Shown here in pieces: positions 13,499 to 43,806 of a stretch of DNA of 64,000 nucleotides. Made by a program: the position numbers and the translations under genes. Source of the DNA: Kibdelosporangium persicum (GTDB taxonomy: Bacteria; Actinomycetota; Actinomycetes; Mycobacteriales; Pseudonocardiaceae); NCBI RefSeq assembly GCF_013280595.1, contig NZ_JAAATY010000009.1:62001-126000 (forward strand). Reading direction: 5' to 3'. The notes beneath the pieces are model-generated. The model worked only from the letters and a program-made list of their open reading frames with translations, searched no databases and was not told the DNA's origin. Each line of letters begins with the position of its first letter. Positions within the stretch are counted from its first letter, which is position 1.

Positions 13499-13542
13499 GC
13501 CCCCACCACTCCCGGGGGGCGACCCCGTGGCCAGTCTACCGG
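13499..13542 (-). other. Conserved promoter-hairpin module, copy A
   Basis: Read on the minus strand: CCGGTAGACTGG, then GGGGTCGCCCCCCGGGAG and TGGTGGGGGC. TAGACT resembles a -10 box, with TGTGAC 17 nt upstream as a possible -35. GCCCCC pairs with GGGGGC to form a hairpin. 40 of 44 positions are identical to copy B at 35145. It points toward the PrsW-like gene, whose start lies 130 bp further on. Confidence 0.6.
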
Positions 13543-13629
13543 GGATAGTGCCTGGTCACAGGGGTTACCGGCCGGTTGTGGACAACTGGTTTCGCGAACG
13601 GTTCCGTTCGCTAGTCAGGGCCGCCGGGC

Positions 13630-13915
13630 GGTGCCGGACCGGATGCTTCACGGTGCCGGAACGCGCATCTCAAGGTGCTGGACTGGTGGACACGACCTGC
13701 CGAAACGGCGGACACGCAATGCCGGAACGCGCGACTCGGGGTGCCGGAACGCGCGACTCGGGGTGCTGGAACGCGCATCTCGGGGTGCTGGAACGCGCAA
13801 CACGCGGTGCCTGAGCGGTGGACACGACCTGCCCGAGCGGTGGACACGGCGTGCCGGAACGGGGGACACGGCGTGCCGGAGTGGGCGTTTCACCGTGGTG
13901 GAGCGGGCGGGAAGG
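13630..13915. repeat. Tandem array of 13 units of 22 bp (array A)
   Basis: Thirteen consecutive 22-bp units with no spacers; the consensus is close to GGTGCCGGAACGCGCGACTC plus GG. Units 5 to 8 are nearly identical and the outer ones diverge. The array ends 2 bases from the stop codon of the DUF6779-like gene. A 22-bp period is not a multiple of three, so any reading frame would shift at every unit; I read this as non-coding. The 13543-13629 spacer holds CGAACGG/CCGTTCG, a short palindrome also seen at copy B. Confidence 0.9.
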
Positions 13916-13917
13916 GG

Positions 13918-15309
13918 TCAGTCCTTCTTGCGGCGCCTGCGTCGGGGTTTGTCGCCGCCTGCGCCGTAGGCCGCCAGCAGCTCGTTGACCGACTTGCCCT
14001 CGGCGTGCGAGCCGGTGGGCTCCGGCGGTGGGGCGGGTTTGGCGTGGCTGCCGGACGGTTGCTCTTGCTGCCGGGCCTGGAACGTCTCCTGCCAGGACGG
14101 GGCGTCGTCCGGCTTGCGTCGACGCCCGCCACCGGCGGCCTCGGGACCAGGCGACTCGGGGGCGCGGCGGCGGCCCGCGCTCTCGTCGATGGTCGGTGGG
14201 ACCTGCACGACGCGGGTCGCAGGTTCGGGTTTGCGGACCGGCGGGGGTGGCGGGGGCGGTTCCGGTGATCGGACGACCGGCTTGCGGACCGTGGGCTCCG
14301 GAGTCTCCGGCAGGGGCTGGATCTGCGTCGGGGCCTCGGGCTCCGGGCGCGGCATCGGACGGCTCGGCTGCGGCTCGGGCTTCTTCGGCGGCCGGGGCGG
14401 GCGGCCTGCCTGCGGCCGGGATGGCGGCTGGGATGGCGACTGGGATGGCGGCTGGGACCCGTTGCGCTCCCACGACGGGGTCCAGTCCGGGTCGATGCCC
14501 TCGCCCAGGCTGTTGGCCGAGTCACCGGCCACCGGACGGTGGTACTGCTGGTTCACCGGCGTCACCGGCTCCCACCAGCCCGAACCCGGGTCGGCGGGGT
14601 CGTCACGGCGGGGCGGGCGGATCTGGACCTGGCGTTCGGCCGGTTCGCGCGCCGGGCGTTGCTGCTGGGGCCGCTGCGGCTGCGGACGGGCGTTGCCGCC
14701 GCGCGGACGGTCCGCCGGGACGCGGTCGATCAGCTCGGTCTGCGGGTCGCTCGGGATGATCACCTGCTGCTGGTTGCCTGCCGGGTTCAGGCGCTTCATC
14801 ATCTGGCCCTGCTGGGGCAGTTGGTGGGACTCGTCGGGCAACGACCGCATCCGGGTCGCCTGCGCCTGGAGGGCGAACCGTTCGACGAGGACTTCGCCGC
14901 CGAGCAGCGACTGCAGCGTCTCCCGCAGCTGGCCGAGCTCGGAGCGCAGGGCCTCGATGTCCGCGCGGGACTGTTCTTCCGCCTTGCGCTTGACCTCGGC
15001 TTCCAGCTCCAGTTCGAACTCGCGCCGCGCGGCGATCTCCCGCTCCAGTTCGAGCTCGTAGACCGCCTGCATACTGGCGGCGTCATCGGTCTTGTCGGCC
15101 ACCTGACGGCGGAACCGCGCGGCCAGGAAGGCGCCGACCAACGCGGCCCACAGCGCCGCGAGGATGCCCATCTTGAGGAACCGGGCGTCGTCGGTGAGGA
15201 CCAGGATCAGTGTCGCGCCGAGGACCAGGACCAACGCGCCGCCCAGCAGCAGCCGCGCCGTGCTCGGCACTCTGCTGGAGTCGCGCGTCGGGGCGGCACG
15301 GCCGGACAT
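13918..15309 (-). CDS. DUF6779-like membrane protein with proline-rich tail
   Basis: 463 residues from the ATG at 15309 (a GTG three codons earlier is possible). Two membrane segments lie at about 18-38 and 43-65, then a charged coiled coil (about 75-140, ELELEREIAARREFELEL), then a long Pro/Arg/Gln-rich low-complexity cytoplasmic tail ending in RRRRRKKD. It follows folK and DUF3180 on the same strand, the usual actinobacterial order. The function is unknown; the layout suggests a scaffold or envelope protein. Confidence 0.8.
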   Translation of the reverse strand: MSGRAAPTRDSSRVPSTARLLLGGALVLVLGATLILVLTDDARFLKMGILAALWAALVGAFLAARFRRQVADKTDDAASMQAVYELELEREIAARREFELELEAEVKRKAEEQSRADIEALRSELGQLRETLQSLLGGEVLVERFALQAQATRMRSLPDESHQLPQQGQMMKRLNPAGNQQQVIIPSDPQTELIDRVPADRPRGGNARPQPQRPQQQRPAREPAERQVQIRPPRRDDPADPGSGWWEPVTPVNQQYHRPVAGDSANSLGEGIDPDWTPSWERNGSQPPSQSPSQPPSRPQAGRPPRPPKKPEPQPSRPMPRPEPEAPTQIQPLPETPEPTVRKPVVRSPEPPPPPPPVRKPEPATRVVQVPPTIDESAGRRRAPESPGPEAAGGGRRRKPDDAPSWQETFQARQQEQPSGSHAKPAPPPEPTGSHAEGKSVNELLAAYGAGGDKPRRRRRKKD

Positions 15310-15388
15310 GCCTAACACCGTACCCGTCAGTTACCGGTCCGAGACCTGCTCGTGGCCGAACCAGCGCTCAATTCACGCTTTGGAACGA

Positions 15389-15847
15389 TCAACGGTCGTC
15401 CGGCTCCTTGGGGTCATCCGGGGTCCGGCAGCAGTGCTCCAGCCACAGACCGGCCGCGATCAGTGCTGCCGAACACAACGCGCCGACGACCGCACTGGAC
15501 GTGTCGTTCGCCGCCGCCAGGACATCTGCCCGTTTAGGAAGCACGTAAACCAGCACGCCGAGCCAGGCGCCGAGCATGATCGCGCCGAGCACGGACGAAG
15601 CCTTGGCCAACGCGACCGCGCGAGCCGCCGTCAGCGCCTGCACCGGCTTGCCCGGGTTGGTCCCCTTGATCCGGGATCTCAGGGAGAATCCCAACGCGAC
15701 GTCGACGATCGCGATGATGACCAGGCTGATGCCCGCCAACGTGGGCAACGGCGGCAGCGAGCCGTAGGCCGACTGCATGATCAGATACAGCACGACCGCG
15801 GCGAGCAGTCCCGCTATGACCAGGTCACGCGGCCTGGTGAACCTCAC
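15389..15847 (-). CDS. DUF3180 membrane protein
   Basis: 152 residues with four predicted membrane segments (about 8-26, 31-52, 75-95 and 112-130). The GTG start at 15847 overlaps the folK stop in a GTGA arrangement, so it is translationally coupled to folate synthesis. It is conserved next to folK in actinobacteria; its role is unknown. The upstream extension of the frame overlaps folK completely and is not real. Confidence 0.88.
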   Translation of the reverse strand: MRFTRPRDLVIAGLLAAVVLYLIMQSAYGSLPPLPTLAGISLVIIAIVDVALGFSLRSRIKGTNPGKPVQALTAARAVALAKASSVLGAIMLGAWLGVLVYVLPKRADVLAAANDTSSAVVGALCSAALIAAGLWLEHCCRTPDDPKEPDDR

Positions 15848-16329
15848 ACCGCCTCCAGCTTGAGATCGTCCCGGCGCCGCACGCCCTCGTCCGCCAGCCG
15901 CGCGACCAGGTCGGCGATCCGGCCGTGGCCCGGCAGTTCGGCGTCCGGCTGCACGTCCAGCCACGGCACCAGGACAAACGCCCGCTCGTGCGCCCGCGGA
16001 TGCGGCAACTCCAGCCGCGGGTCGATGCTCGTGACCCCGGTAACCGTAATCACGTCCACGTCGAGCGAACGCGGGCCCCACCGGACATCCCGGACACGCC
16101 CGGCGGCGTTCTCCAGTTCGTGGGCGCGGCGCAGCCAGTCCCACTCGCCGAAGCCCTCGTGGGACGCGATCACGATCGCGTTGAGGAAGTCGTCCTGGTC
16201 CGTCACGCCCCACGGCGCCGTCTCGTACACAGCGGACACGGCCAACGCGGGCAGACCGTCCACTGCGGACTGCAGGTGCGCGAGCCGATCGCCCATGTTG
16301 GAGCCGATCGACAGGACGGCGGTGGTCAT
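15844..16329 (-). CDS. folK: 2-amino-4-hydroxy-6-hydroxymethyldihydropteridine pyrophosphokinase
   Basis: 161 residues. It transfers pyrophosphate from ATP to the pterin, giving the substrate of FolP. Typical motifs: SIGSNMGDR near the N-terminus, YETAPWG, and DVRWGPRSLDVDVI with the metal-binding Asp pair, then LPHPRAHERAFVLVP. Its ATG overlaps the folB stop. Confidence 0.96.
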   Translation of the reverse strand: MTTAVLSIGSNMGDRLAHLQSAVDGLPALAVSAVYETAPWGVTDQDDFLNAIVIASHEGFGEWDWLRRAHELENAAGRVRDVRWGPRSLDVDVITVTGVTSIDPRLELPHPRAHERAFVLVPWLDVQPDAELPGHGRIADLVARLADEGVRRRDDLKLEAV

Positions 16330-16700
16330 CAGCGGTCCCGCCGCACGGTGACCGAGACGTCCGCGAAGGTCAGCGGGATCGGCGCGGACGGCTTGTGCAC
16401 GGTCACCTCGACCGCGGTGACGCGCTCGTCGGTCATCACGTCGTCGGCGATCTCGCCGGCGACCGATTCGATCAGGTCACGTGCCGGTCCGGCGACGATC
16501 GCGGCCGCGCGCTCGGCCAGTTCGCCGTAGTGCATGGTCTTGGCCAGGTCGTCGGTCTTCGCGGCGTCGGTCAGGTCCAGCCAAACCGTGATGTCGACGA
16601 CGAAGTCCTGCCCGTCGCGCTTCTCGTGCTCGAAGACACCGTGGTTGCCGCGTACCCGCAGCCCGGTGAGCGTGATCCGGTCGCTCAAGCCCGCCCCCAT
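16329..16700 (-). CDS. folB: Dihydroneopterin aldolase
   Basis: 123 residues from the ATG at 16700; a TTG four codons later ([10 protein letters not shown]) fits the usual family start and is an alternative. It carries the [14 protein letters not shown] motif, the catalytic Glu in the FEHE segment and the Lys of the VHKPSAP loop. It converts dihydroneopterin to the hydroxymethyl pterin used by FolK. The start overlaps the folP end by 16 nt. Confidence 0.95.
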
Positions 16701-17521
16701 TCCGCCACCACTCGTACCGCGTCGAGCGACCGCATGACGTCGTGCACCCGCACACCCCAGACGCCTTTCGCGGCGGCCATCGTGGAGATCGCGGCGGTCG
16801 CGTCCTCACGGCCGTCGGGCGGGCGGGGAGTGCCGTCCTTGCCGGCCAGCAACCGGCCGATGAAACGTTTGCGCGACGCCCCGACCAGCACGGGATACCC
16901 CAGGTCGATGAAGACGTCCAGGCCGCGCAGCAACGCCCAGTCGTGCGGGGCCTGTTTCGCGAACCCGAGCCCGGGGTCGATCACGACCGCGTCCGGTGCC
17001 ACCCCGGCGGCCAGCGCCGCGTCCACCCGCCGGCACAGCTCGTCGCGGACTTCGGCGACGACGTCGGTGTAGTCGGCCAGCGAGTTCATGTCCTTGCTGT
17101 GGCCACGCCAGTGCATCAGGATCCACGGCACCTGCGCGTCCGCGACGACCCGCGCCATGTCCTTGTCCGCCAGGCCGCCGGACACGTCGTTCACGACGGT
17201 CGCGCCCGCCGCCAGCGCGGCCTCGGCGACACGGGCCCGCATGGTGTCCACGCTGATCCGGACGCCCGCCGCGGCCAGTTCCCTGATCACCGGCTCGACC
17301 CGGCCGATCTCCACCTCGGCGGCCACCCGCTCGGCGCCCGGCCGGGTCGACTCGCCGCCGACGTCGATCAGGTCGGCGCCCGCTTCCCACATCTCGTGCG
17401 CGTGCCGCAGCGCATCGTCCACAGTGAAGTAGCGGCCGCCGTCGGAGAACGAATCCGGTGTCACGTTGAGGACACCCATCACCACGCAGCGGCCCGGGTC
17501 GGGCAGCAGCCGGTGCGTCAT
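16685..17521 (-). CDS. folP: Dihydropteroate synthase
   Basis: 278-residue TIM-barrel enzyme joining the pterin diphosphate and p-aminobenzoate; it is the sulfonamide target. Motifs: [15 protein letters not shown] near residue 20, [32 protein letters not shown] and GASRKRFIG. The ATG at 17521 overlaps the folE stop (ATGA); the upstream part of the open frame lies inside folE and is a shadow. Confidence 0.96.
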
Positions 17522-18138
17522 CGCCGTGCCTTGATCAGGTCCAACGCCTCCGCACGGGACGACGCCGACGTCTTGAACTGGCCGCGCACAGCCGAAGTCG
17601 TCGTACGCGCGCCGGGCTTGCGGATGCCGCGCATCGACATGCACAGGTGCTCGGCCTCGACGACCACGATCACCCCGCGCGGCCGCAACGTGCGCATCAG
17701 CGAGTCGGCCACCTGGGACGTCAGCCTCTCCTGGACCTGCGGCCGTTTGGCGAACGCGTCGACCAGCCTGGCCAGTTTGGACAGTCCGGTGACCTTGCCG
17801 TGCTCGTTCGGGATGTACCCGACGTGGGCGACGCCGTGAAACGGCACGAGGTGGTGTTCGCAGGTCGAGTACATCGGGATGTCGGTGACCAGGACGAGTT
17901 CCTCATGGGACTCGTCGAAGGTCTTGGCCAGCACGGCATCCGGGTCCATGTACAGGCCGGCGAACATCTCGCGGTACGCGCGGGCCACCCGGGCCGGGGT
18001 GTCGGCGAGACCCTCGCGGTCAGGGTCCTCGCCGCAGGCCAGCAGCAGCTCACGCACGGCCTTCTCGGCACGTGCCTGGTCGAAAACGGGACGAACGGAG
18101 CGGGCACCGTCCGCTGGGGACGCACCCGCTCCGTTCAC
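17518..18138 (-). CDS. folE: GTP cyclohydrolase I
   Basis: 206 residues with GTG start. It opens the folate pathway by converting GTP to dihydroneopterin triphosphate. The zinc ligands sit in [11 protein letters not shown] (Cys and His) and HLCMSMRG (second Cys); [13 protein letters not shown] closes the active site. It starts 11 nt after the ftsH stop and overlaps folP, so ftsH-folE-folP-folB-folK look co-transcribed. Confidence 0.97.
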
Positions 18139-18149
18139 TGACTCGATGC

Positions 18150-20321: not shown

Positions 20322-20546
20322 TCACTTACGGCCGCCGGGCGGCCTCGACCCTCCCTGACTTGCATTTCGGGTAGTGAGCCCCACTACCCGGCCGGCGGGG
20401 CAATCCGGTCCATCCAGCGTACCGCCCACTTCCAGCGCGTCACGCGCCAAGTGAACGAGGGTAGCTCGTTTCCGGTGGATCCGCGCTGGACAGTGGAGAC
20501 AACGGGCGAATCGCACGACCGGTTCCCAGCGAACCTGAGGGCTTCC

Positions 20547-23129: not shown

Positions 23130-26100
23130 TCAATTGCAGCCACAAGTTCGGAGCGCCGCGGCCACCGTGTCGAGCGCGGGCCGGGCCGCGAGAGTGTCGC
23201 TCTCGCTCGTCATCAGGGCGAACACCAGCAGCCTGCCGTCCGCGTCGAGCACGACACCGGCCAGGGAGTTGATCCTGGCCAGCGGCAACGTGCCGGTCTT
23301 GGCCCGCACGTAACCGCGGCCACCGGCGGCGGGCTGGCCCTCGGCGAACCGTCCGGCCAGCGTCCCGCTGCCGCCGGCGACCGGCAGGCCGCCGAGCATC
23401 GGCCGCAGTTTGGCCGTCCGCGGGTCTTTGCCGTCCCCCGCCGCCACCGAGAGAACCTGGGCGAACAGCCGTGCCGGCACCTTGTTGTTCGTCGACATAC
23501 CGCTGCCGTCGAACAGTTCGGCGCCGGTGACGTCGAAACCGTGCTCGGACAGGACTTTCAGCGTCGCCCTGCGCACGCCGGCCAACGACGGCTCCTCGCC
23601 CGCGGCCTTCGCGACCTCGCGGGCGATGACGTCCGCGAGCACGTTGTCGGAAGCCTGCAGGAACTGGTCGACGAGCTCGGTGAGCGGTGCGGACTTCACC
23701 TCACCGAGCACCTGGGCGTCGGCCGGAGCGGTCACCTCGGGCTTGGCGGCCACGGGCGCCCCGACGCGCTTGGCGAACTCGGTCGCGGCCGACTTCGCCG
23801 GGTCGGAGCTGCGTGGGCTGCGGTCCTTGGTCGGGTCCTGCCGGGCCCCGTCCAGCATCAGGGGCGCGGCCGGGGAGACGTACCCCTCCTGCACGTCACC
23901 CGGCAGCACCCCGGGCGCGAGGCCGTCGGCGGTGTAGCGGCTGCGGTCGAAGTAGACCTGACTGACCGGGCCCTTGGCTTTCACTTGCGCGACAAGGTCA
24001 TCGAGCCGTGCGGAGCCGGGGAAGACGGAGTTCCTGCCTGCCGGCAACGAGTTCAGCGTGGCGTCACCGCCACCGACGATGATGACGCTGCCGGCCTCCG
24101 GGCCCGCGACGACCTTGGTGCCGAACTGCTGGCCGTGCGGGATCTTGAGCAAGGCCGCCGCGGCGGTCAGCAGTTTTGTGGTCGAGGCCGGGGTGAGCGG
24201 AGTCGTCGGGTTCTTCTCCCACAGGACGTTCCCGGTCGCGGCATCGATGACCGATCCCGTCAGCGTGCCCAACGCGGGGTTGCCCGCTGGGCCGGACAAC
24301 GTGCTCTGGACACCCTGCGGCGTGGGCGCGTTCGCTTCGGCGCTGGGCGGCTTCAGGTTCGGCGTGAACGCCACCGGAGCGGGCGGCGGGGCGATCGCGG
24401 CATCGGTCCCGGACTCGCCGAGCCCCAGGTTCTCCCTGACCCCGGGAACGAAGAAGACGACACCGGCCGCCAGCGCGACGATCACGACGATGGCCGCGAG
24501 AACGAGCAGGCGCGTGTTCTTCTTCTTGCCGGGCAAGGGCGTGAGGGCGCGGTGAGTGTCCTCATTGGAGGGTGGTGGCTGCTCGTTGCCGTCGGATTCG
24601 CCGCGCGGCTTGATATCGGGCGCGGGCAGCCGGGACTGGCCGGACGACTCCAGCCCCATCGGCGCGACAGGCCGGTTCGGCGGCCGCACCGGCTGGTTGC
24701 GCGGTCCGGGGAAAGCCGGGCCACTGGGCGGCGTGGGCCGGACCGGCGGGCGGCCAGTCGGCTCCAGCCCTCGCGGAGCCGCGGGCCTGACCGGCGGCCG
24801 CATCGGCGGTGGCACCGGCCTGCTGGGGCGCGCGACCGGTTCGGTCCTGTCCGGCCTGGCCGGAGGCGGTAGCGGTTGGCTGCGCGTCGGAGCGTCGAAC
24901 AACGACCGGGGCGGCGTGACGAACACGGTCTTCTCGGCGGCCGCCGTTCGGTCGTCACCACGGCGTTCCGGCTCGGCCCTGGTGTCCCGCGGCGGCCGGG
25001 ACCGGCCTGATTCCGGCACAACCGGCGTGACGAACGCGGTCCGCTCACTGGAGGACGAAGCCTCAGCGCGGCCTTCCGAATCGCGCGGCGGCACGTCGAA
25101 CAGCGACCGCCCCGGTTGCGACGCCTGCCTCTTGGCCTCGCCGTCTTTCGACTGGGTGCGCGGCACGTCGAACAACGACGGACCCGGCTCGGGCGCGGCC
25201 TGCCTCTTGGCCTCGCCATCCTTCGGCTCGGTGCGCGGCACGTCGAACAACGACCGGCCCGGCTCCGGCGCGACAGCCGCCGGACTGTCGGGCTTCGGCG
25301 CAACCGGCGTGACGAACGCGGTCCGCTCACTGGAGGATGTGACCTCCTCATCACCGCGGACTTCCGGCTCGCGCGGCGGAACGTCGGACTGGTCAGGCTC
25401 GTCCGGTTCTGGCCGCGCCTCGGCAGTGCTCTCGGATTCAGGCGCGACCGGCGTCACGAAGTCCGTCTTCTCGGCGGGCTTCTTTTCCTCGTGGCTTTCC
25501 GCCTGCTGGGCGGTGGGCGCGGGTTCCTCGCTCTTCTCGCCGGACGCGTCACTTGTGGGTGCCGAATCCTCCTGCGGCACGTCCGGAGGGGCAGCCCCCG
25601 CAACCGACTCCGGCACGACCGGCGTTTCCCCGGACTCGTTGTCCGGCTCGCCGTGTGACGGCTCGTCAGTCGGCTCGGAAGCTTGCGACTCATCCGAGGG
25701 CGGCTCCGCAACGACAGCCTCGGGCTCCGGCTCGGCACGCTCCTCCGCGACCTGCCCGTCCTCCGGCTGCTCGGGCTCAGCAGCCTGCCCAACGACAGGC
25801 TCCGGCTCAGCAGCCTCCTCGGCTACAGGCTCCGGCTCAGCAGCCTCCTCGGCTACAGGCTCTGACTCGGCACGCTCGTCGTTGATCTGCGCGGATTCGG
25901 CGTCATCCTCCGCGACTTGCCCGTCCTCCGACTGCCCGGGCTCCGACTCCACGGCGACAAGCTCCGACTCGGCAGCCTCCTCGCCCACCTGCGCGGACCC
26001 GGCGTCGTACTCCGCGACTTGCCCGTCCTCCGACTGCTCGGCCTCCGGCTCGGCAGCCTTCCCAGCGACGAGCTCCGACTCGGCAGCCTCCTCAGCGACA

Positions 26101-26816
26101 GGTTCCGACTCGGCAGCCTCCTCGGCGACAGACTCCGGCTCGGCACGCTCGTCGCCGACCTGCGCGGACTCGGCGTCATCCCCCGCGACTTGCCCGTCCT
26201 CCGACTGCTCGGCCTCCGGCTCGGCAGCCTTCCCAGCGACAAGCTCCGGCTCAGCAGCCTCAGCGACAGGCTCCAACTCGGCAGCTTTCCCGGCGACAGA
26301 CTCCGACTCAGCGGCCTCCTCGCCGACCTGCGCGGATTCGGCGTCATCCTCGGCGGGCTCGGGCTCGGCGCGCCCCTCTGCGACCCGCTCGTCCGCCGAC
26401 TGCTCGGGCTCTGATTCGGCGCGCTCCCGCACGTCGGGCTCGGGCTTCTCGGTTTCCGACTGGTCGGCCGCGCTGTCCGACACCTGTGATTCGCCACTCG
26501 GGGGTTCCGGAATTTCACCCACTTCGGTGACGCTGCGTACCTGTTCGGTCTTCTCCGCCGCGGGTTCCGCGGGTGGTTCCGGGGGTGATTCGAACCACGT
26601 CGAGGCGCCCGCGGGCGGCTCGCTTTTCAGCTGCGCCGGCCTCGGCGGCTTGCCCGGTTCGAAGCGCATCGGCATCGCGCGCGGCGGCAGCGGCATCGCC
26701 ATCGGGGTCGTGTACTGCTCGGGCGGCCGCTGCTTGTCCGGGTCTACCTGCGGGAATCCAGTCGACGGCCGATCGTCGTCGGCCGTCGGCCACGCCGGGT
26801 GGTCCTGGTCTGCCAC
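23130..26816 (-). CDS. dacB: D-alanyl-D-alanine carboxypeptidase (PBP4/DacB, S13) with giant N-terminal repeat region
   Basis: 1228 residues. The C-terminal 400 form the penicillin-binding S13 domain that trims peptidoglycan peptides: catalytic Ser878 and Lys881 in ASTTK, SDN at 1056-1058, and KTG at 1173-1175. One membrane segment at about 767-790 anchors it with the enzyme outside. The 765-residue N-terminal part is predicted cytoplasmic: a Pro-rich start, degenerate acidic repeats (roughly residues 130-370, built from AEPEPVAEEAAE-like units with DGQVAEDDAESAQV), then FVTPVAP and SLFDVPR repeats, then a Pro/Arg-rich stretch. Homologues normally total about 400-500 residues. The GTG start has GGGAGAGG upstream. 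Confidence 0.93.
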   Translation of the reverse strand: MADQDHPAWPTADDDRPSTGFPQVDPDKQRPPEQYTTPMAMPLPPRAMPMRFEPGKPPRPAQLKSEPPAGASTWFESPPEPPAEPAAEKTEQVRSVTEVGEIPEPPSGESQVSDSAADQSETEKPEPDVRERAESEPEQSADERVAEGRAEPEPAEDDAESAQVGEEAAESESVAGKAAELEPVAEAAEPELVAGKAAEPEAEQSEDGQVAGDDAESAQVGDERAEPESVAEEAAESEPVAEEAAESELVAGKAAEPEAEQSEDGQVAEYDAGSAQVGEEAAESELVAVESEPGQSEDGQVAEDDAESAQINDERAESEPVAEEAAEPEPVAEEAAEPEPVVGQAAEPEQPEDGQVAEERAEPEPEAVVAEPPSDESQASEPTDEPSHGEPDNESGETPVVPESVAGAAPPDVPQEDSAPTSDASGEKSEEPAPTAQQAESHEEKKPAEKTDFVTPVAPESESTAEARPEPDEPDQSDVPPREPEVRGDEEVTSSSERTAFVTPVAPKPDSPAAVAPEPGRSLFDVPRTEPKDGEAKRQAAPEPGPSLFDVPRTQSKDGEAKRQASQPGRSLFDVPPRDSEGRAEASSSSERTAFVTPVVPESGRSRPPRDTRAEPERRGDDRTAAAEKTVFVTPPRSLFDAPTRSQPLPPPARPDRTEPVARPSRPVPPPMRPPVRPAAPRGLEPTGRPPVRPTPPSGPAFPGPRNQPVRPPNRPVAPMGLESSGQSRLPAPDIKPRGESDGNEQPPPSNEDTHRALTPLPGKKKNTRLLVLAAIVVIVALAAGVVFFVPGVRENLGLGESGTDAAIAPPPAPVAFTPNLKPPSAEANAPTPQGVQSTLSGPAGNPALGTLTGSVIDAATGNVLWEKNPTTPLTPASTTKLLTAAAALLKIPHGQQFGTKVVAGPEAGSVIIVGGGDATLNSLPAGRNSVFPGSARLDDLVAQVKAKGPVSQVYFDRSRYTADGLAPGVLPGDVQEGYVSPAAPLMLDGARQDPTKDRSPRSSDPAKSAATEFAKRVGAPVAAKPEVTAPADAQVLGEVKSAPLTELVDQFLQASDNVLADVIAREVAKAAGEEPSLAGVRRATLKVLSEHGFDVTGAELFDGSGMSTNNKVPARLFAQVLSVAAGDGKDPRTAKLRPMLGGLPVAGGSGTLAGRFAEGQPAAGGRGYVRAKTGTLPLARINSLAGVVLDADGRLLVFALMTSESDTLAARPALDTVAAALRTCGCN

Positions 26817-34935: not shown

Positions 34936-35075
34936 GGCACCGGGCAGGTCGCTGGCACGTCACCCGCCCTCGCTGGCACGCCGCCGGTCGCCGCTGGCAA
35001 GCCACTCCCCCTCGCTGGCACGTCACCGGCCCTCGCTGGCACGTCGCCGGTCGCCGCTGGCAAGTCACCCGTCGG
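34936..35075. repeat. Tandem array of 21-bp units (array B1)
   Basis: Five full units plus partial ones at each end, consensus near GGCACGTCACCGGCCCTCGCT. Three successive units form a 63-bp higher-order repeat that occurs twice. It lies upstream of conserved module copy B, in the same relative order as arrays A and C to their modules. Confidence 0.88.
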
Positions 35076-35144
35076 AGTGAACCTCGTACGAACGGACCGT
35101 TCGCACCGGTTCGCCCCGCGAAAACCCCTTCCACCAGGCCAAAC

Positions 35145-35188
35145 CCGGTAGAATGGGTCCGGGGTCGCCCCCCGGGAGTGGTGGGGGC
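35145..35188 (+). other. Conserved promoter-hairpin module, copy B
   Basis: CCGGTAGAATGG, then GGGGTCGCCCCCCGGGAG and TGGTGGGGGC, 40 of 44 positions equal to copy A. TAGAAT resembles a -10 box. Upstream at 35090 is CGAACGGACCGTTCG, nearly the palindrome found before copy A. It points toward array B2 and the 3' end of the binding-protein gene, against that gene's direction. Confidence 0.6.
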
Positions 35189-35197
35189 TGTTTGGGG

Positions 35198-35518
35198 GCC
35201 GGAGTTGCTCTTGGCTGCTCGAACACCGCGGTTGGTCATTCCTGCTTGGGGACCGAAGTCGCCCGTAGCCGCCGGAAGACCGGAGCCGACTGTGGCCACC
35301 TGAGCACCGCGGTCTGCCATAGCTGCCTGAGGGCCGGGGTTGGCCGCCGCCGGAAGACCGGAGCCAGCTATGGCCATCTGACGGCTGGGGTCGGCCATAG
35401 CCGCCTGAGAACCGGGGTTGGTCATGGCGGCTCGATGACCGCGGTCGGCCACAACTGCTTGGGGGCCGGGGGTTGGCCAAAGCTGCCTGAAGACCGCGTT
35501 AGGGGCGGGGTTGGTCAT
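35198..35518. repeat. Tandem array of about 12 units of 27 bp (array B2)
   Basis: Units such as ACCGCGGTCTGCCATAGCTG plus CCTGAGG repeat at 27-bp steps, one unit being 24 and one 28 bp. The last unit ends at the stop codon of the binding-protein gene (35515). Because the periods of B1 and B2 are multiples of three, a 229-codon minus frame (35518 to 34829) stays open across the whole gap. Its ATG overlaps the binding-protein stop and its stop overlaps the DppB-type start. I do not call it a gene, but it should be tested. Confidence 0.85.
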
Positions 35519-37290: not shown

Positions 37291-37339
37291 CGCGCCTCCC
37301 CGGGTTGATCAGTGATTTTCGGGACGCTAATCCCCGAGA

Positions 37340-37427
37340 CGAACAAAAAACAAGACCCCTCGTCGTAAGTTCTGGATTGAGGTAACGTTTCCGACGTAAC
37401 TTGGTTCGTTTTCGAACAAAGAACGAA
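37340..37427. promoter_or_regulatory. Divergent promoter region with candidate ROK operator
   Basis: GTTCG-TTTT-CGAAC is at 37404-37417, directly before the ribosome-binding site of the ROK repressor. CGAACAAA occurs there (37413) and again at 37340 nearer the lipoprotein gene. The sites suggest joint control of both divergent units. Confidence 0.4.
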
Positions 37428-37437
37428 GGAGGGTCAC

Positions 37438-38556
37438 GTGCCGCAACCGCCGACGGCCGAGATCCTGCGGCTGGTGTCCTCCGGCGAGGCCTCGTCCCGC
37501 ACGGATCTCGCCCGCGTCCTCGGCCTCGCGAGATCCACCGTGTCGCTGCGCGTCCAGGAGCTCATCGACGCCGGTCTGCTGACCGAGACCGGCGAAGGGC
37601 CGTCCCGTGGCGGACGTAAGCCGCGAGTCCTGCGGCCCGCGGGTGACGGCGGTTACGTGATCGGCGCGGACATCGGCGCGCGGCACGTCCGGCTCGCCGC
37701 TTACGACCTGTCCGGCGAACGTCTGCACCTCACCGAGGTCGGACTGGACATCACCGCGAGCCCGGAAGCGTGCCTCACCGCGCTGCTCGACATCATCGGC
37801 GAGCTCAACACAACCCTTGCCGGACAACGACTTCTCGGGCTCGGTGTCGGCCTGCCCGGGCCGGTCAACTTCGCGGACGGACGGGTCGAGCGCCCGGCGA
37901 GGATGCCGGGCTGGCACGGCTTCGAGGTCCGGGACTGGCTGGCCGGACGCCTGGACATCCCGGTCGCGGTGGACAACGACGCGAACGTCGTGGCGCTGGG
38001 CGAACTGCACACGCGCAACCGCGGCCCCGAGCACCTGGTGGTGGTCAAAGCCGGAACCGGTGTCGGCTGCGGGGTGATCGCGTCCGGCGTCATTCACCGT
38101 GGTGCGAATGGAGTTTCCGGCGACGTGAGCCACGTGCGCGTCCAGGCTGCTGGTGACACTCCCTGTGCCTGCGGCAATACCGGGTGCCTCGAAACCATCG
38201 CTAGCGGAGCTGCCGTGGCACGCGGCGTCGGCGCGCGTGACACCGGACATCTCGTGGAACTGGCCAACGACGCCGAACCGCACGCGACCGCCGCGGTACG
38301 GCGTGCCGGAGGACACCTCGGCGAGGTGCTGTCCACAGTGGTCAACTTCTTCAACCCGCACGCGGTGCTGCTGACCGGCCGTCTGTCCTCAGTGGAACCG
38401 TACGTCGCCGCGGTGCGCGGCGCGCTCTACGAACGATGCCTGCCGATGGCGACCCAGAACCTGGAGGTCGCGGTCGCCATGGCCGGGCAGGACGCCGGGC
38501 CGCTCGGCGCCGGAATGCTGGCGCTGCAGCAGGTTCACCGCAAGGAAAGGAACTAG
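37438..38556 (+). CDS. ROK-family transcriptional repressor
   Basis: 372 residues from a GTG with AGGAGGG 5 nt upstream. The N-terminal winged helix (RTDLARVLGLARSTVSLRV) binds DNA; the ROK domain follows with GADIGARHVRLAAYD, VDNDANVVALGE and an intact zinc loop CACGNTGCLE. Such proteins sense sugars or amino sugars. It sits between the peptide transporter and the M81 gene, 4 bp ahead of the latter, so it likely controls both. Confidence 0.93.
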   Translation: MPQPPTAEILRLVSSGEASSRTDLARVLGLARSTVSLRVQELIDAGLLTETGEGPSRGGRKPRVLRPAGDGGYVIGADIGARHVRLAAYDLSGERLHLTEVGLDITASPEACLTALLDIIGELNTTLAGQRLLGLGVGLPGPVNFADGRVERPARMPGWHGFEVRDWLAGRLDIPVAVDNDANVVALGELHTRNRGPEHLVVVKAGTGVGCGVIASGVIHRGANGVSGDVSHVRVQAAGDTPCACGNTGCLETIASGAAVARGVGARDTGHLVELANDAEPHATAAVRRAGGHLGEVLSTVVNFFNPHAVLLTGRLSSVEPYVAAVRGALYERCLPMATQNLEVAVAMAGQDAGPLGAGMLALQQVHRKERN

Positions 38557-38560
38557 GCCA

Positions 38561-39976
38561 GTGCGCATCGGGATCACCGGGATCGGCATCGAGAGCAGCA
38601 CGTTCTCGCCGCACCGCACCGGCTTGGCCGACTTCAGGGTGACCAGGGGTGCGGATCTGCTCGGCCGCTACACGTGGACCGAGGACGCGTCGCTGGACGT
38701 CGAGTGGGTGCCGCTGCTGCACGCGGTGTCCCTGCCCGGCGGCGCGGTTCTCGCGGACGTCTACACCGGACTGAAGACCGAGATCCTGGACCGTATCCGC
38801 GAAGCGGGTCCGTTGGACGGACTGCTGCTGGACATCCACGGCGCGATGAGCGTGGTCGGCATGCTGGACGCGGAAGCCGACCTGGCCAAGGCGGTCCGGG
38901 ACGCGGTCGGCCCGGATGTGCTGATCTCCGCGGCGATGGACCTGCACGGCAACGTGTCGTACGACTTCGTGCGGAACCTCGACCTGGTCACGTGTTACCG
39001 CATGGCCCCGCATGAGGATGCCTGGCAGACAAAGGAAAGAGCGGCCCGCAACCTCGTCGCACGGCTACGCGAAGGCGGTAAGCCGCATCTGGCGTGGGTA
39101 CAGATCCCTGTGCTGCTGCCCGGCGAGAAGACCAGTACCCGGATCGAACCGGCGAAGAGCCTGTACGGCCAGCTCGAGGACATCGAGGCGATGGAAGGGA
39201 TTCTGGACGCCTCGATCTGGGTCGGCTACGCGTGGGCCGACGAGCCTCGTTGCCAGGCAGCCGTGGTCGTGACGGGCGACGACGCCGAGCTCGTGCAACA
39301 GCAGGCGACCAAGCTGGCGAACGACTATTGGCGGGTACGTGAGGAGTTCGCCTTCGTCGCGCCGACAGGAAGTCTCGACCACTGCATCCGGGAGGGCTTG
39401 GCCAGCGATGCGCGGCCGTTCTTCATCAGCGACTCGGGCGACAACCCGACCGCCGGCGGCGCCGGGGATGTCTCGTGGACGTTGCGAGTCCTCAGGGCCT
39501 ACCAGTCACGCACGATCATCTACGCGTCCATTGTGGATCCCGAGTCCGTCGCGATCGCCAAGGCGGGCGGTGAGGTCGACCTGATGGTCGGCGGGAAGAT
39601 CGACTCCGGACCGGCCGGACCGGTTCCCCTGTCCGGCACGGTCGTGAAGGTGCACGAGGACCCGGTGGGCGGCACGATCGTGGTGGTCCGGTCCGGCGGG
39701 CTGCACGTCGTCATCACCGAGCGACGCAAGCCGTACCACCTGGTCAAGGACTTCACCGACCTCGACCTGGACCCGGCGGCCGCCGATCTGACGGTGGTGA
39801 AGATCGGCTACCTGGAGCCGGAGATCTACGACCTGGCCAAGGGCTGGTTGCTGGCCCTGACTCCAGGCGGCGTCGACCAGGACCTGATCCGGCTGGGACA
39901 CAAGCGGATCGTGCGGCCGCTCTACCCCTTCGACCCCGACATGCCCACCCCCGGCCTGACATCCCGCCTGCTCTGA
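38561..39976 (+). CDS. M81-family metallopeptidase (MlrC-like)
   Basis: 471 residues from a GTG, 4 bp after the ROK repressor. MlrC-type N-terminal domain (GIESSTFSPHRTG; LLLDIHGAMSV; SAAMDLHGNVS with likely metal ligands Asp/His) and the MlrC C-terminal domain (SDSGDNPTAGGAGD). MlrC in sphingomonads cleaves small peptides from microcystin breakdown. Next to a peptide importer, an intracellular role on imported peptides is a fair inference. The stop is followed at once by palindrome copy 3. Confidence 0.92.
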   Translation: MRIGITGIGIESSTFSPHRTGLADFRVTRGADLLGRYTWTEDASLDVEWVPLLHAVSLPGGAVLADVYTGLKTEILDRIREAGPLDGLLLDIHGAMSVVGMLDAEADLAKAVRDAVGPDVLISAAMDLHGNVSYDFVRNLDLVTCYRMAPHEDAWQTKERAARNLVARLREGGKPHLAWVQIPVLLPGEKTSTRIEPAKSLYGQLEDIEAMEGILDASIWVGYAWADEPRCQAAVVVTGDDAELVQQQATKLANDYWRVREEFAFVAPTGSLDHCIREGLASDARPFFISDSGDNPTAGGAGDVSWTLRVLRAYQSRTIIYASIVDPESVAIAKAGGEVDLMVGGKIDSGPAGPVPLSGTVVKVHEDPVGGTIVVVRSGGLHVVITERRKPYHLVKDFTDLDLDPAAADLTVVKIGYLEPEIYDLAKGWLLALTPGGVDQDLIRLGHKRIVRPLYPFDPDMPTPGLTSRLL

Positions 39977-40024
39977 CCTCGTGAGTGTTTATCCGTGTTC
40001 TAACACCGATAAACACTCACGAGG
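39977..40024. repeat. 48-bp palindrome, copy 3 (likely bidirectional terminator)
   Basis: Starts directly after the M81 stop; 16-bp arms identical to copy 1. It lies between the convergent M81 and glyA genes. Confidence 0.88.
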
Positions 40025-40083
40025 GCCCGGTGCAGCGGGAATCCGTCGTGGCGCGGCCTCTGACGTACGTCAGCCGACGTACG

Positions 40084-41346
40084 TCAACGCCAGCCCGGCA
40101 TCGGGTAAGCGGCGAGCAGCTCACGGATCTCGCCCGCGATGCGCTCGATCGTGGCCTCGTCACCGGCGTTCTCGGCCTGGACGACCTGGTCGATCCACTC
40201 GGCGATCTTCGGCATCTGCTCGGTGCCCAGGCCCCGGGTGGTGATCGCGGCGGTGCCGAGCCGCAGGCCGGAGGGGTCGAACGGCTTGCGCGGGTCGAAC
40301 GGGACCGTGTTGTAGTTCAGCTCGATGCCCGCCCGGTCCAGCGCCTTGGCGGCCGGCTTGCCCGCGATGCCCTTGTTGGTCAGGTCGATCAGGATCAGGT
40401 GGTTGTCCGTACCACCTGACACCAGGTCGAAGCCACGCTCGGCCAGCGCCCCGGCCAGCGCCTTGGCGTTGGCGACGATGGCGTGCGCGTACGACGAGAA
40501 CTCCGGCTTGGCGGCCTCGCCCAACGCGACGGCGATGGCCGCGGTGGTGTGGTTGTGCGGACCGCCCTGCAGTCCCGGGAAGACGGCCTTGTCCAACGCC
40601 TTCGCGTGCTCGGCGTCCGACATCAGCATGGCGCCACGCGGGCCGCGGAGGGTCTTGTGCGTGGTGGTCGAGATGACCGGCGCGTGCCCGACCGGCGACG
40701 GGTGCGCCCCACCGGCGATCAGGCCGGCGATGTGCGCGATGTCGGCGACCAGGACGGCCCCGACTTCCCGGGCGATCTCCGCGAAGCCCGGGTAGTCGAT
40801 GGTGCGCGGGATCGCGGTACCACCGCAGAAGATCAACTTGGGTCGTTCGGCCAGCGCCAGCTCACGGACCTCGTCGAGGTCGACCTGGCCGGTGTCCTTA
40901 CGCACGCCGTAGGCGACACTGCGGAACCACTTGCCGGTCGCGGAGACGTTCCAACCGTGCGTGAGGTGACCGCCCGCGGGCAACGCCATACCCATGACGG
41001 TCTCGCCGGGCTGGAGGAACGCGAGGTAGACGGCGAGGTTGGCGGGCGAACCGGAGTACGGCTGCACGTTGGCGTGGTCGACGCCGAACACCGACTTGGC
41101 GCGCTCGATGGCGAGGGTCTCGATCGGGTCGACGAGCTGCTGACCCTCGTAGTACCGCTTGCCGGCGTATCCCTCGGAGTACTTGTTGGTCAACACCGTG
41201 CCGGTCGCTTCGAGGACCGCGGTGGACACGTAGTTCTCCGACGCGATGAGCCGGATCTTCTCGTACTGACGCTTGGCTTCCGCTTCGACGAGACCCGCGA
41301 TCTCGGGGTCCGCGGCGGCGAGGTCGGTAATCGCGGGCTGATGCAC
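40084..41346 (-). CDS. glyA: Serine hydroxymethyltransferase
   Basis: 420 residues. PLP enzyme that interconverts serine and glycine and charges tetrahydrofolate. The PLP lysine is in ISTTTHKTLRGPRG; ASENYVS, YYEGQQ and the YSGSPANLAVYL segment are typical. Divergent from the hotdog protein gene, with 51 bp between starts. Confidence 0.97.
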   Translation of the reverse strand: MHQPAITDLAAADPEIAGLVEAEAKRQYEKIRLIASENYVSTAVLEATGTVLTNKYSEGYAGKRYYEGQQLVDPIETLAIERAKSVFGVDHANVQPYSGSPANLAVYLAFLQPGETVMGMALPAGGHLTHGWNVSATGKWFRSVAYGVRKDTGQVDLDEVRELALAERPKLIFCGGTAIPRTIDYPGFAEIAREVGAVLVADIAHIAGLIAGGAHPSPVGHAPVISTTTHKTLRGPRGAMLMSDAEHAKALDKAVFPGLQGGPHNHTTAAIAVALGEAAKPEFSSYAHAIVANAKALAGALAERGFDLVSGGTDNHLILIDLTNKGIAGKPAAKALDRAGIELNYNTVPFDPRKPFDPSGLRLGTAAITTRGLGTEQMPKIAEWIDQVVQAENAGDEATIERIAGEIRELLAAYPMPGWR

Positions 41347-41397
41347 GGTTCCGAATCCTATCGCCCGCCGATGTTACCGGTGAGTAGTATCGACGCC

Positions 41398-41844
41398 ATG
41401 GACTTGAGCACGCTCGGCGAAGCCATGAAGAGCACCGTGCCCTGGGTGCGGACCGCGGGGATCGAGTTCAAGGAGGTCACCGCGACCCGCGTGGTCACGG
41501 TCCTCCCGGACGATCCGGCGAACCACAACCACGTCGGCGGCGCGCACGCGGCCGTCGCGTTCGGCCTGGCCGAGACGGCCTCCGGCGCGGTCGTGCTGGC
41601 GTCGTTCAGCGAGCAGCTGGCCAGGGCGACGCCGCTGGTCAAGCGTTCGGAGATCGACTACAAGAAGGTCGCGATGGGCGACCTGACCGCCGAGGCCGTG
41701 CTGGGCCGCCCGGCTGAGGAGATCGTCGCCGAACTGGACAACGGCACTCGTCCGGAGTTCCCGGTGCACGTCACCATCCGCAACGCGGAGGACGTGCCGA
41801 CCGCCGAGGTGACCGTGACCTGGACGCTGCGCCCGAATCGCTGA
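41398..41844 (+). CDS. DUF4442 / hotdog-fold thioesterase-like protein
   Basis: 148 residues from the ATG at 41398; an in-frame ATG at 41371 would add nine residues. The NHNHVGGAHAAVAFGLAETASG segment is the hotdog helix seen in acyl-CoA thioesterase relatives. A thioester hydrolase role is possible but the substrate is unknown. A small hairpin (ACCGG-T6-CCGGT at 41844-41859) follows the stop. Confidence 0.82.
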   Translation: MDLSTLGEAMKSTVPWVRTAGIEFKEVTATRVVTVLPDDPANHNHVGGAHAAVAFGLAETASGAVVLASFSEQLARATPLVKRSEIDYKKVAMGDLTAEAVLGRPAEEIVAELDNGTRPEFPVHVTIRNAEDVPTAEVTVTWTLRPNR

Positions 41845-41881
41845 CCGGTTTTTTCCGGTGTCCGCGTTCTATTCTGGGAAG

Positions 41882-42022
41882 ATGAACGACTTCGGCGACT
41901 GCCTGGACATCCGTGACTGGCGTGAGCGGGCGAAGAACGACGAGAAGTGCGTCGAGGTCCGTGATCTCGCCACGATCCTCAGGGAGGCCGCCGAGGCGAA
42001 CTCGCCCCGGCAACCCCGCTGA
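41882..42022 (+). CDS. Small hypothetical protein (46 aa)
   Basis: ATG with GGGAAG 2-3 nt upstream and TATTCT further up as a -10-like box; 46 codons, acidic and basic residues mixed, two Cys (MNDFGDCLDIRDW and NDEKCVEVRDL). Codon use is GC3-rich like real genes here. I do not recognise the family. It ends directly against the stop of the L11 paralogue, so the two are convergent. Confidence 0.5.
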   Translation: MNDFGDCLDIRDWRERAKNDEKCVEVRDLATILREAAEANSPRQPR

Positions 42023-42412
42023 TCACCCGACCCGCACGCCCATCGACCGCGCGGTGCCTTCGATCGTGCGCATCGCCGCCTCGATGTCGGTCGTGTTCAG
42101 GTCCGGCAGTTTGCGTTGCGCGATCGAGCGCAACTGATCACGGCTGATCGTCCGGTCGCCGTTGACCGCCTGCTTGATCAGGAACGACGTCGGCGGCGTC
42201 TTGAGTTTCAGCGCGAAGCTGCGATCCTCGAAGATCGTGATCACCGCGGGCACGATTTCGCCGCGCTGGGCCGCGGTGGCCGAGTCGTATTCCTTTTTCA
42301 GCGCGACCAGGTTGACCCCGGTCATGCCGAGCATCTTGCCCAGCTCGGCAACCGGCGCCTCACCTGCGGGAAGCTCCATGGTGACCTGGTGGGCCGTTTT
42401 CTTGGGTGGCAT
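42023..42412 (-). CDS. Stand-alone paralogue of ribosomal protein L11
   Basis: 129 residues, versus about 144 for the usual L11. The C-terminal RNA-binding half is clear (QRGEIVPAVITIFEDRSF, KTPPTSFLI, LPDLNTTDIEAAMRTIEG, TARSMGVRV). The N-terminal half keeps AGEAP and TGVNLVALKKEY. The segment between, which in normal L11 is rich in prolines (PAPPVGPALG), here reads PVAELGKMLG. The linker after KTPP is about ten residues shorter. It has no nusG, rplA or other ribosomal neighbours. Whether it enters ribosomes is unknown. Confidence 0.92.
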   Translation of the reverse strand: MPPKKTAHQVTMELPAGEAPVAELGKMLGMTGVNLVALKKEYDSATAAQRGEIVPAVITIFEDRSFALKLKTPPTSFLIKQAVNGDRTISRDQLRSIAQRKLPDLNTTDIEAAMRTIEGTARSMGVRVG

Positions 42413-42475
42413 CGCTCGCCGTCCTTTCTCCGACGGCGAGCGACGCTAAAGTTTCCGGTGGCTGGAGAGTCAAAA

Positions 42476-43330
42476 CTATTTACGGAACCGCCACGTCTTG
42501 CTGTCGAACAACAGGCAGACGCTGGGCGACAGCACGACCACCCGCAGTGTGCCGTCCCGTTCGTCGTAGTCGATGCCTTCGACCTCGAAATCACCGCTGC
42601 ACCCGCTCTCCAGCGGCAACTGCCCGAGCGCGGTCACCCGGCCCGCGACGTCACTGCCGTTCAACGGACCGGCGAGATCCACCTGCAGCAACGGTTTCCT
42701 GATGCCGAACAGCGTCCCGTCGGGATCGTCCGACGCACACAGCAACTGCGTCGCGGACGTGAAGTCGCAGCCCTGGATGTCCCGCACCGGCCTGTCCAGC
42801 CGGATCTGCCCGGCCAGCGGCAGGTTCTGGCTCGGCGTCGTGAACGCGATTCCCGGCATCGGGTGCACGAGCAGGCGGCTCATCGTGCCCCACTCACCCG
42901 CGACCATCCACCGCCCGTCCGGCGACACCGCCGAGAACGAGTTGTTGTTGGCTTCCCACGACTCCAGCGCGTGCTGGTACTCCGACCACGAGTTGTCCGG
43001 CGCCTGGACGCGGAACAGCTTGGCGCCGCGGTCGTCGCGCTGGTAGGGCTCGACGTAGTAGCCATGGCCCGCGCCCGGGTCCCCGACGTGGTTCCACCCT
43101 CTTGAGGACACTCCCACCGGGATGGTGCCGACCCCGGTGTAGCGGATGATCGTCTGGTTCGGACGGACGATGGTGGCGAGGCCCTGGCTTTCGTCGAGCG
43201 GGCGAGCCCGATCGGAACCGATCGGGTTCCACGGTCCCACCGGCGACGCGGCCTGCGCGACGGCTGGGAGCAGGGACATGGTCACGGCCGCGATCGCGGT
43301 GACAGCGGCAACACTGGCAACTCTGCGCAT
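42476..43330 (-). CDS. Secreted protein of unknown function
   Basis: 284 residues from the ATG at 43330. A signal peptide (about 1-27, ending AVAQA before ASP) is clear. The mature part has repeated short motifs of beta-propeller character (SPDGRWMVAGEWG, LLCASDDPDGTLFGI, VEGIDYDERDGTLRVVVLSP) and four Cys that could pair. I do not recognise the family. The open frame continues upstream into the repeat region and that part is not credible as protein. Confidence 0.8.
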   Translation of the reverse strand: MRRVASVAAVTAIAAVTMSLLPAVAQAASPVGPWNPIGSDRARPLDESQGLATIVRPNQTIIRYTGVGTIPVGVSSRGWNHVGDPGAGHGYYVEPYQRDDRGAKLFRVQAPDNSWSEYQHALESWEANNNSFSAVSPDGRWMVAGEWGTMSRLLVHPMPGIAFTTPSQNLPLAGQIRLDRPVRDIQGCDFTSATQLLCASDDPDGTLFGIRKPLLQVDLAGPLNGSDVAGRVTALGQLPLESGCSGDFEVEGIDYDERDGTLRVVVLSPSVCLLFDSKTWRFRK

Positions 43331-43550
43331 GCGCTGTGCATACCTGGCGTGAACGACCTTCCGGAAGCCGCCACATGAACCATATTCACGTTTTATCGGC
43401 CAGCGTCCGAACGCGAGATGAACAACTTCCAGGCTCCCCGGCGTCTTCGCCCCGGAAGCACCGTCCGCCAAGGACGGATCACCTCGAACCCCAGCCGCTG
43501 AACCGGATCCCGAGCCAACCATCGCCCGGCCCCCGCCACACACCCGGGCA

Positions 43551-43605
43551 GCCCCCACCGCACCGACAATTCCTCTGGGGGAACCCCTGATTTCAACGCT
43601 ACCGG
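43551..43605 (-). other. Conserved promoter-hairpin module, copy C (divergent)
   Basis: On the minus strand: CCGGTAGCGTTG, then AGGGGTTCCCCCAGAGGAAT and GTGCGGTGGGGGC. It keeps the CCGGTAG box, GGGGT-CCCCC and the closing GTGGGGGC of copies A and B, but with a longer loop. A 67-codon minus frame (43596-43393) runs through it; its reality is doubtful. Confidence 0.45.
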
Positions 43606-43662
43606 AGGGGTCCGACAAAACCGGCGCGCGCCGTGTCTGACCTGCGCGGACGACGGTAAGCG

Positions 43663-43806
43663 CGGCGCGCGAACCCAGCCGCGGGCTACAGCCGCGCGCG
43701 AACCCAGCCGCGGGCTACAGCCGCGCGCGAACCCAGCCGCGGGCTACAGCCGCGCGCGAACCCAGCCGCGGGCTACAGCCGCGCGCGAACCCAGCCGCGG
43801 GCTACT
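43663..43806. repeat. Tandem array of five 29-bp units (array C)
   Basis: GAACCCAGCCGCGGGCTA recurs at 43671, 43700, 43729, 43758 and 43787, exactly 29 bp apart, joined by CAGCCGCGCGC; the five copies are practically identical. The last unit contains the TAG stop of the LysR gene. There are no spacers. The remaining bases from 43331 to 43662 hold module C and nothing else that I can support. Confidence 0.92.

Follow-up and report, generated by a model that had tools for sequence, protein, structure and literature searches.

A 64,000-nucleotide stretch of the Kibdelosporangium persicum genome (contig NZ_JAAATY010000009.1, positions 62,001 to 126,000; hereafter the window) contains two copies, A and B, of a repeat that is interspersed through genomes of the Pseudonocardiaceae. 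The repeat, termed family 1, is a unit of about 120 bp in which DnaA boxes precede a TAGACT −10-like box followed by runs of G and C, and the searches and alignments described here give good support to its standing as a new interspersed repeat family whose core is promoter-like and carries DnaA boxes. On balance, we lean toward the reading that DnaA sets transcription from this element, that its copies act as a sink for DnaA, and that the tandem arrays beside some copies are a consequence of its presence. A first-pass annotation, made from the sequence alone, had described three copies of one compound unit, each with a tandem array 60–90 bp upstream of a promoter-hairpin module. The modules are present at A (minus strand), B (plus strand) and a third site, C (minus strand), and from CCGGTAG onward A and B do have 40 of 44 positions in common; C, however, is missing from the 51 matches (E ≤ 1) of a model of A and B and represents a separate family with relatives of its own.

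Distribution of family 1

The K. persicum genome (G000) was searched with a core pattern, with overlapping duplicates counted once and the reversed pattern as a control. The pattern was found at 23 distinct places, 21 of the A/B type and two of the C type, and the reversed control at none. A covariance model, R1, was built from 19 copies (alignment A1) and used as a search model only, the structure given for it by RNAalifold being unlike the proposed hairpin. With 150 of about 7,000 first-look candidates scored, R1 produced 45 matches in this genome at E ≤ 0.01, or 51 when the limit was raised to E ≤ 1, and 26 of the 45 lie outside the 19-copy seed set and so do not arise by construction. In five of the 89 contigs (1.43 Mb, genes called by a custom script), which served as our K. 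persicum sample, nhmmer gave E values of 4.7e-30 for A and 9e-19 for B, well past what chance would give, although these two values are partly by construction since both copies are among the 19 seeds. With 45 copies at E ≤ 0.01, the module is far from unique to the three sites in the window, and the earlier suggestion of a repeated, promoter-like, non-coding unit is supported; at matching sites the unit is present in some sister species and absent from others.

R1 matched all eight Kibdelosporangium genomes (8/8, with 12–82 copies each) and at least 95 of 297 Pseudonocardiaceae genomes, from at least 27 of the 46 genera sampled, these family-wide figures being lower bounds because stricter filters were used and 12 candidates were scored per genome. 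Across the order, the core pattern was present in 14 of 54 genomes of Pseudonocardiaceae (reversed control, 0) and in 0 of 244 genomes from the other families, and Actinokineospora inagensis (G167) carries 125 exact core matches (control, 0). A scan of named records returned at least 106 stretches, and the 80 loci listed among them come from Kutzneria, Actinokineospora, Amycolatopsis, Kibdelosporangium, Lentzea, Labedaea, and one record labelled Rhodococcus rhodnii. This last record (NRRL B-16535, L151) is identical at the locus to the Kibdelosporangium genome G005 and is probably mislabelled. The core also varies with lineage, as all four exact copies from sibling species (4/4) carry the variant TAGAATGGCGTC, which is absent from all 21 exact K. 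persicum copies.

Several individual copies were recorded along with these counts. In genus g33, one copy is present in each of the 7 genomes listed with a match. In L103 the genes on either side of the copy are cydA- and cydB-like (named by eye), with the copy antisense to them; in L105 the open reading frames (ORFs) are alike in size and place, and a near-parS sequence adjoins the copy in both. In L038, the Rfam small RNA (sRNA) Ms_IGR-5 (RF02471, 77.7 bits; L038:1249-1486) is immediately upstream of an element copy.

A DnaA-box promoter-like core

The core profile identified 242 distinct copies in the loci collected and, after one without TAnnnTGG was dropped, 241 were analysed. The −10-like box is TAGACT in 209 of these, TAGAAT in 15 and TAGGCT in 13, and GGGG starts 12 bases past its first T, at the expected start site, so that six bases separate box and G-run, the four before GGGG being variable. 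Upstream on the element strand, a strict DnaA box (TTRTCCACA) is present in 217/241 copies, compared to 0.1 in shuffles, and a further 22 DnaA boxes lie on the opposite strand. The distance of these boxes from the −10-like box, a feature missed in the first-pass annotation, is fixed: 236 of 251 element-strand boxes occupy one of two places relative to it, −65 to −67 and −46 to −48 (66 or 47 bp ± 1). The upstream boxes were no part of the core profile. A DnaA-regulated promoter would be expected to have its boxes at a set distance ahead of the −10 box, and by its layout the element looks like a DnaA-responsive promoter. PMC4210621 describes TT(G/A)TCCACA as the classic DnaA box and reports the oriC of Kutzneria albida to be without it.

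In Kibdelosporangium copies, the DnaA box is at the −47 place only, and a palindrome occupies the place of the other box. This is the CGAACGG/CCGTTCG palindrome that had been noted, correctly, as common to A and B. As GAACGG-N0-2-CCGTTC it occurs 16 times in the K. persicum sample, 10 of these inside called elements, and the form GAACGG[AT]CCGTTC occurs 11 times, nine in elements and two at weak diverged copies. The DnaA box of A, TTGTCCACA, is overrepresented in the same sample (46 occurrences vs 3.3 for shuffled words), with 14/46 in elements, and is found three times in the K. persicum oriC. In the A. inagensis sample (793 kb), 47 of 81 strict DnaA boxes are inside elements. Intergenic clusters of 2–4 strict boxes with no called element were also seen in K. 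persicum (G000 C9:187372-187424, C2:247263-247410, C9:276975-277077 and C2:161559-161580).

A diverged copy with the palindrome is present in the dnaA-dnaN (oriC) region of K. persicum (G000 C2:341867-341983; R1 E 0.027). As a universal source of the family oriC was rejected: among 12 further sequences (L376-L387), three gave weak or partial matches (L381, L384, L385) and eight gave no match; the remaining one, L387, was too short at 95 bases, and L366 likewise showed no match. These few matches indicate that the oriC region is one more site of the element and not a place where it forms a fixed part of the origin. Between +12 and +60, 204/241 copies contain a G-quadruplex motif, compared to 74.6 in shuffles; since the conserved G-runs produce it by themselves, nothing was built on it. 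An association between the TGTCGGACC motif and 13E12/HNH genes was given no weight here.

Genomic position and turnover

At E ≤ 1e-4, the K. persicum sample contains 19 elements, 18 of them intergenic; the copy at C34:80100 lies within a called gene, itself maybe an artefact, and the region counts do not include this copy. The 18 element regions comprise nine convergent, nine tandem and no divergent ones, compared to 89, 361 and 220 among the 670 other regions (Fisher 2.7e-4 for convergent enrichment), and the gene preceding the element is co-oriented with it in 14/18. In the A. inagensis sample (46 elements in 31 regions), 12/31 element regions are convergent compared to 42/359 (P = 2.7e-4), and four are divergent. 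Copies can also be found within coding sequence, as three A. inagensis elements with arrays are in frame in a type I polyketide synthase (PKS) ORF (L174:3301-5400), between the dehydratase matches PKS_DH_N (residues 30–116) and PS-DH (464–586) of the translated piece.

Turnover was followed by comparing 30 sibling loci (one place represented twice) to the K. persicum contigs analysed. Seven loci (L043, L048, L050, L058, L064, L065, L066) have both flanks and an empty site in K. persicum, and seven others (L044, L045, L047, L051, L056, L059, L067) correspond to five K. persicum sites that carry the element; matches were incomplete at three (L042, L053, L057), and 13 had none over 250 bases. When the shared sites were aligned, the palindrome, DnaA box, −10-like box and G-run were best kept, and the DNA right after the G-run had diverged (by eye).

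Tandem arrays beside the element

Tandem Repeats Finder (TRF) confirmed the arrays at all three sites in the window, with periods of 22 bp at A, 21/63 and 27/78 at B, and 29 bp (4.9 copies) at C. The 60–90 bp reported between array and CCGGTAG holds for B (about 73 bp) but not for A (about 109 bp) or C (about 59 bp), and B, where an array does lie upstream of the module, has a second one downstream. In the K. persicum sample, tandem repeats are present in 8/18 element regions compared to 41/670 others. Only 2 of 2000 length-matched draws reached the observed repeat bases, and with matching for both length and orientation the mean was 2.4 regions, at least eight regions were reached in 4 of 5000 draws and the repeat bases in 29 of 5000. 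The absence of arrays beside most copies, which the first-pass annotation had named as a ground for refutation, is seen in part, with 10 of the 18 element regions lacking one, but element regions still exceed the matched controls in arrays. In A. inagensis, with elements masked, 11/31 element regions contain arrays compared to 39/359 others (P = 6e-4). Across the 80 of 106 named stretches, unmasked, repeat coverage was 0.08–0.09 at 100–400 bp upstream; farther off than 1 kb it was mostly under 0.02, with some values as high as 0.054, and a repeat was found within 600 bp for 35/95 copies.

Matching sites in related genomes differ in their arrays. At site B, G007 (146 bp) has no array at score 50, G003 (329 bp) has one 18-bp array and K. 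persicum (662–674 bp) has two different arrays. The K. persicum C2:58450 region contains 157 bp of repeats and its ortholog L044 none. Site A is element-free in four relatives, where it spans 57–158 bp; unit-like copies number eight in K. persicum, one each in G001 and G005, none in G004, G006 and G007, and three in G003, where the element is absent and a transposase-like insertion is present (G002 not resolved). The site A array is an amplified 21-bp sequence that is single-copy in two element-free relatives. Site C measures just 16–36 bp in six of seven relatives (G007 not resolved), and in L064 two elements together with arrays take up 878 bp, compared to 54 bp at its K. persicum counterpart. 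In K. aridum DSM 43828 (L143), one array downstream of the module, with a 34-bp unit, is a repetition of the G-run end of the module itself. From these comparisons the arrays look secondary to the element, and the array differences at matching sister-species sites support the earlier idea that new arrays form beside it.

A proposed mechanism and its alternatives

In the mechanism that we favour, DnaA would bind one or two boxes at a fixed distance from the −10-like box and set transcription from the element, by activation or repression, and the many copies would also serve as a sink for DnaA. Transcription would start at GGGG and continue through the C- and G-runs. Some copying or conversion process would keep copies alike within a lineage, and the differences between species would be gains and not losses; no enzyme of its own was found for family 1, with PF01797 as the sole transposase search. 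Slippage would duplicate sequence adjoining an established element, whether this belongs to the host or is the 3′ end of the element itself; the G/C-run segment and promoter activity would probably contribute. Our confidence falls from DnaA control through transcription and the mechanism of mobility to the seeding of arrays.

A number of observations weigh against this mechanism. A strict DnaA box is missing from 24/241 copies, B among them, and the −35 region is poorly conserved, with TTGAYC or TTGAC within 40 bp before the box in just 37/241. The copies were found by core patterns and profiles and filtered for TAnnnTGG, so the invariance of the core is by construction, and related copies are not independent. 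The preference for 3′ ends is weaker in A. inagensis, where the preceding gene is co-oriented in just 25/45 intergenic copies and 20/45 follow a gene pointing away, compared to 4/18 in K. persicum. No target duplication or terminal inverted repeat was recognised by eye in the seven empty-site comparisons, in which the flanks had diverged. When A. inagensis regions were restricted to those of at least 200 bp, arrays were found in 11/31 compared to 30/156 (P = 0.058), indicating that much of the raw difference is due to region length. Arrays also occur without elements, in the 41/670 regions above and at site A in G003 and G007.

The alternative that we rate as unlikely, yet take most seriously, is a repeat that acts as DNA only, its DnaA boxes and G/C-run segment serving as DnaA sinks or replication-timing sites and its −10-like box being unused. 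The DnaA boxes are the clearest upstream feature, elements hold most of the strict boxes in the A. inagensis stretches, there is no −35 consensus and RNA folding is no better than in shuffles, all of which suit this alternative; the fixed spacing between box and TAnnnT and the four variable bases before GGGG, however, are predicted by a promoter and not by a pure sink. More doubtful still is a reading in which a mobile DnaA-responsive promoter would be a miniature origin-like site, where DnaA binding and transcription of the G-rich segment would open the DNA, and local synthesis or slippage would seed arrays and help the element to spread copies to new sites, which would tie the birth of repeats to the initiator of replication.

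We give little credence to family 1 as a multi-copy gene for a short structured RNA, such as a regulatory sRNA; that the unit may drive a short structured RNA was one of the possibilities in the first-pass annotation. The promoter-like box, the conserved sequence from the expected start and the presence of CCCC-N5-12-GGGG in 240/241 copies speak for such a gene, and the hairpin can indeed be drawn. However, the folding energies of all four presumed transcripts (4/4) resemble those of their own shuffles (z +0.50 to −1.28), no Rfam match to the module was found in the window or 18 loci, and at a shared site conservation stops at the G-run (by eye). The stem columns hardly vary, offering no countable covariation, so the covariation check that had been proposed is not informative in either direction; a hairpin in the RNA is a possibility only.

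That the element inserts preferentially into existing tandem repeats was already disfavoured, and is a shade less credible again. Arrays are enriched beside elements and repeats exist at element-free sites, site A in G003 and G007 included, which would suit such a preference; at site B, however, the shared element is array-free in G007 and accompanied by different arrays in G003 and K. persicum, and element-free relatives hold only 0–3 unit-like copies at A or a 16–36 bp gap at C. Mobilisation of a GTAG-type repetitive extragenic palindrome (REP) by a REP-associated tyrosine transposase (RAYT) is hardly credible. GTAG followed by G/C inverted-repeat sequence, extragenic placement and high copy number speak for it. 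Against it, the transposase domain Y1_Tnp (PF01797) has 0 matches in K. persicum (45 copies) and A. inagensis (125 core matches), GTAG is not at a palindrome foot, its G being A in 10% of copies and six bases (four variable) separating box and G-run, and no actinobacterium is mentioned in the text of a survey of GTAG REPs (PMC3733652).

PF01797 was present in 6/16 genomes, three of them element-rich (G001, G002, G005) and three without a match in the family search (G012, G014, G019). Like GTAG/CGTC REPs, REPINs and bacterial interspersed mosaic elements, family 1 is short, high-copy, mostly extragenic, sometimes intragenic and sometimes clustered; unlike them, it has a promoter-like core with DnaA boxes and no palindrome abutting GTAG, and its host phylum differs from those named for REPs in the survey text (PMC3733652). 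The DnaA boxes of datA, DARS and DnaA-regulated promoters such as that of dnaA, which serve as a sink or stand next to a promoter, have a counterpart in family 1; those systems are single loci (PMC4585315; PMC8203912), whereas family 1 reaches 125 dispersed core copies in a genome and has fixed box spacing. Miniature inverted-repeat transposable elements are likewise non-autonomous, interspersed, and present or absent between relatives, but family 1 has no recognised terminal inverted repeats or target duplications and no partner transposase in the PF01797 search. A phage or plasmid source was rejected, with no exact core match in viral contigs and, for one 125-bp copy, no blastn match at E 0.001 in plasmids and phages. 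No description of such an element was present among the papers listed in literature searches, and neither a matching transposase (PF01797 being the domain searched) nor a named family was found, in line with the earlier statement that no named family fits.

If DnaA uses these copies, DnaA-tuned promoters would be spread genome-wide in the Pseudonocardiaceae as a lineage-specific set, and since over half of the strict boxes in the A. inagensis stretches read are in the repeat, its copy number could adjust the control of replication. With copies that are bare in one species and arrayed in others at the same shared site, the element is a natural system in which to study the birth of intergenic tandem repeats, and it is also an example of repeats that enter coding frames between protein domains.

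The family of element C

The family of element C has 10 nhmmer matches, seven in the K. persicum sample and three in a piece of contig C40, and no match in the A. inagensis stretches. All 10 have [TC]TGTCR-N11-TAnnGT (by eye), a layout resembling the mycobacterial P1 consensus tTGTCRgtg-8 nt-TannnT of RecA-independent (PafBC/ClgR) promoters (PMC5656591). TGTCR and TA..GT are correctly spaced in 10/10, but the gtg part is not kept, and promoter function is putative; the motif also differs from mycobacterial P1 promoters in lying within a dispersed repeat with three copies in a coding frame. These three are in frame within a K. persicum biotin carboxylase ORF (L408:3-1499), in the 117 residues that separate the Pfam domains CPSase_L_D2, which runs to 157, and Biotin_carb_C, which starts at 275. 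Among the seven places in the K. persicum contigs, tandem repeats are near the window copy and one pair on C34.

Features of the window

Table 1 Features of elements A, B and C; window coordinates are contig C9 positions of G000 minus 62000
Feature	Position	Strand	Basis
Element A (family 1), whole conserved unit	13494..13615	-	Covariance model R1 match 5.2e-30, G000:C9:75494-75615
A: upstream palindrome GCGAACGGTTCCGTTCGC	13594..13611	.	Read from sequence
A: DnaA box TTGTCCACA, first T 47 bp ahead of first T of −10-like box	13577..13585	-	Sequence; spacing class
A: −10-like box TAGACT	13533..13538	-	Sequence; TAGACT in 209/241 copies
A: presumed initially transcribed G-run/C-run/G-run segment	13499..13526	-	Sequence, column profile; putative start site
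A: upstream tandem array, 22-bp unit	13652..13881	.	TRF; 8 unit-like copies in K. persicum
B: upstream tandem array, period 21/63	34949..35071	.	TRF; not at orthologous sites L045, L059
Element B (family 1), without strict DnaA box	35084..35192	+	Covariance model match 1.8e-20
B: −10-like box TAGAAT	35149..35154	+	Sequence
B: downstream tandem array, period 27/78	35250..35496	.	TRF; no score-50 array in L045, unrelated 18-bp array in L059
Element C, second family: P1/PafBC-like promoter motif and GGGG/CCCC segment	43546..43624	-	nhmmer family, 10 matches
C: TTGTCG-N11-TAGCGT, layout tTGTCR...TannnT	43596..43618	-	Sequence; consensus in PMC5656591
C: tandem array, 29 bp x 4.9, copies identical (100% matches)	43665..43805	.	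TRF

Elsewhere in the window, at 25088-26349, overlapping long ORFs on both strands contain long tandem repeats whose periods range from 15 to 273 bp.

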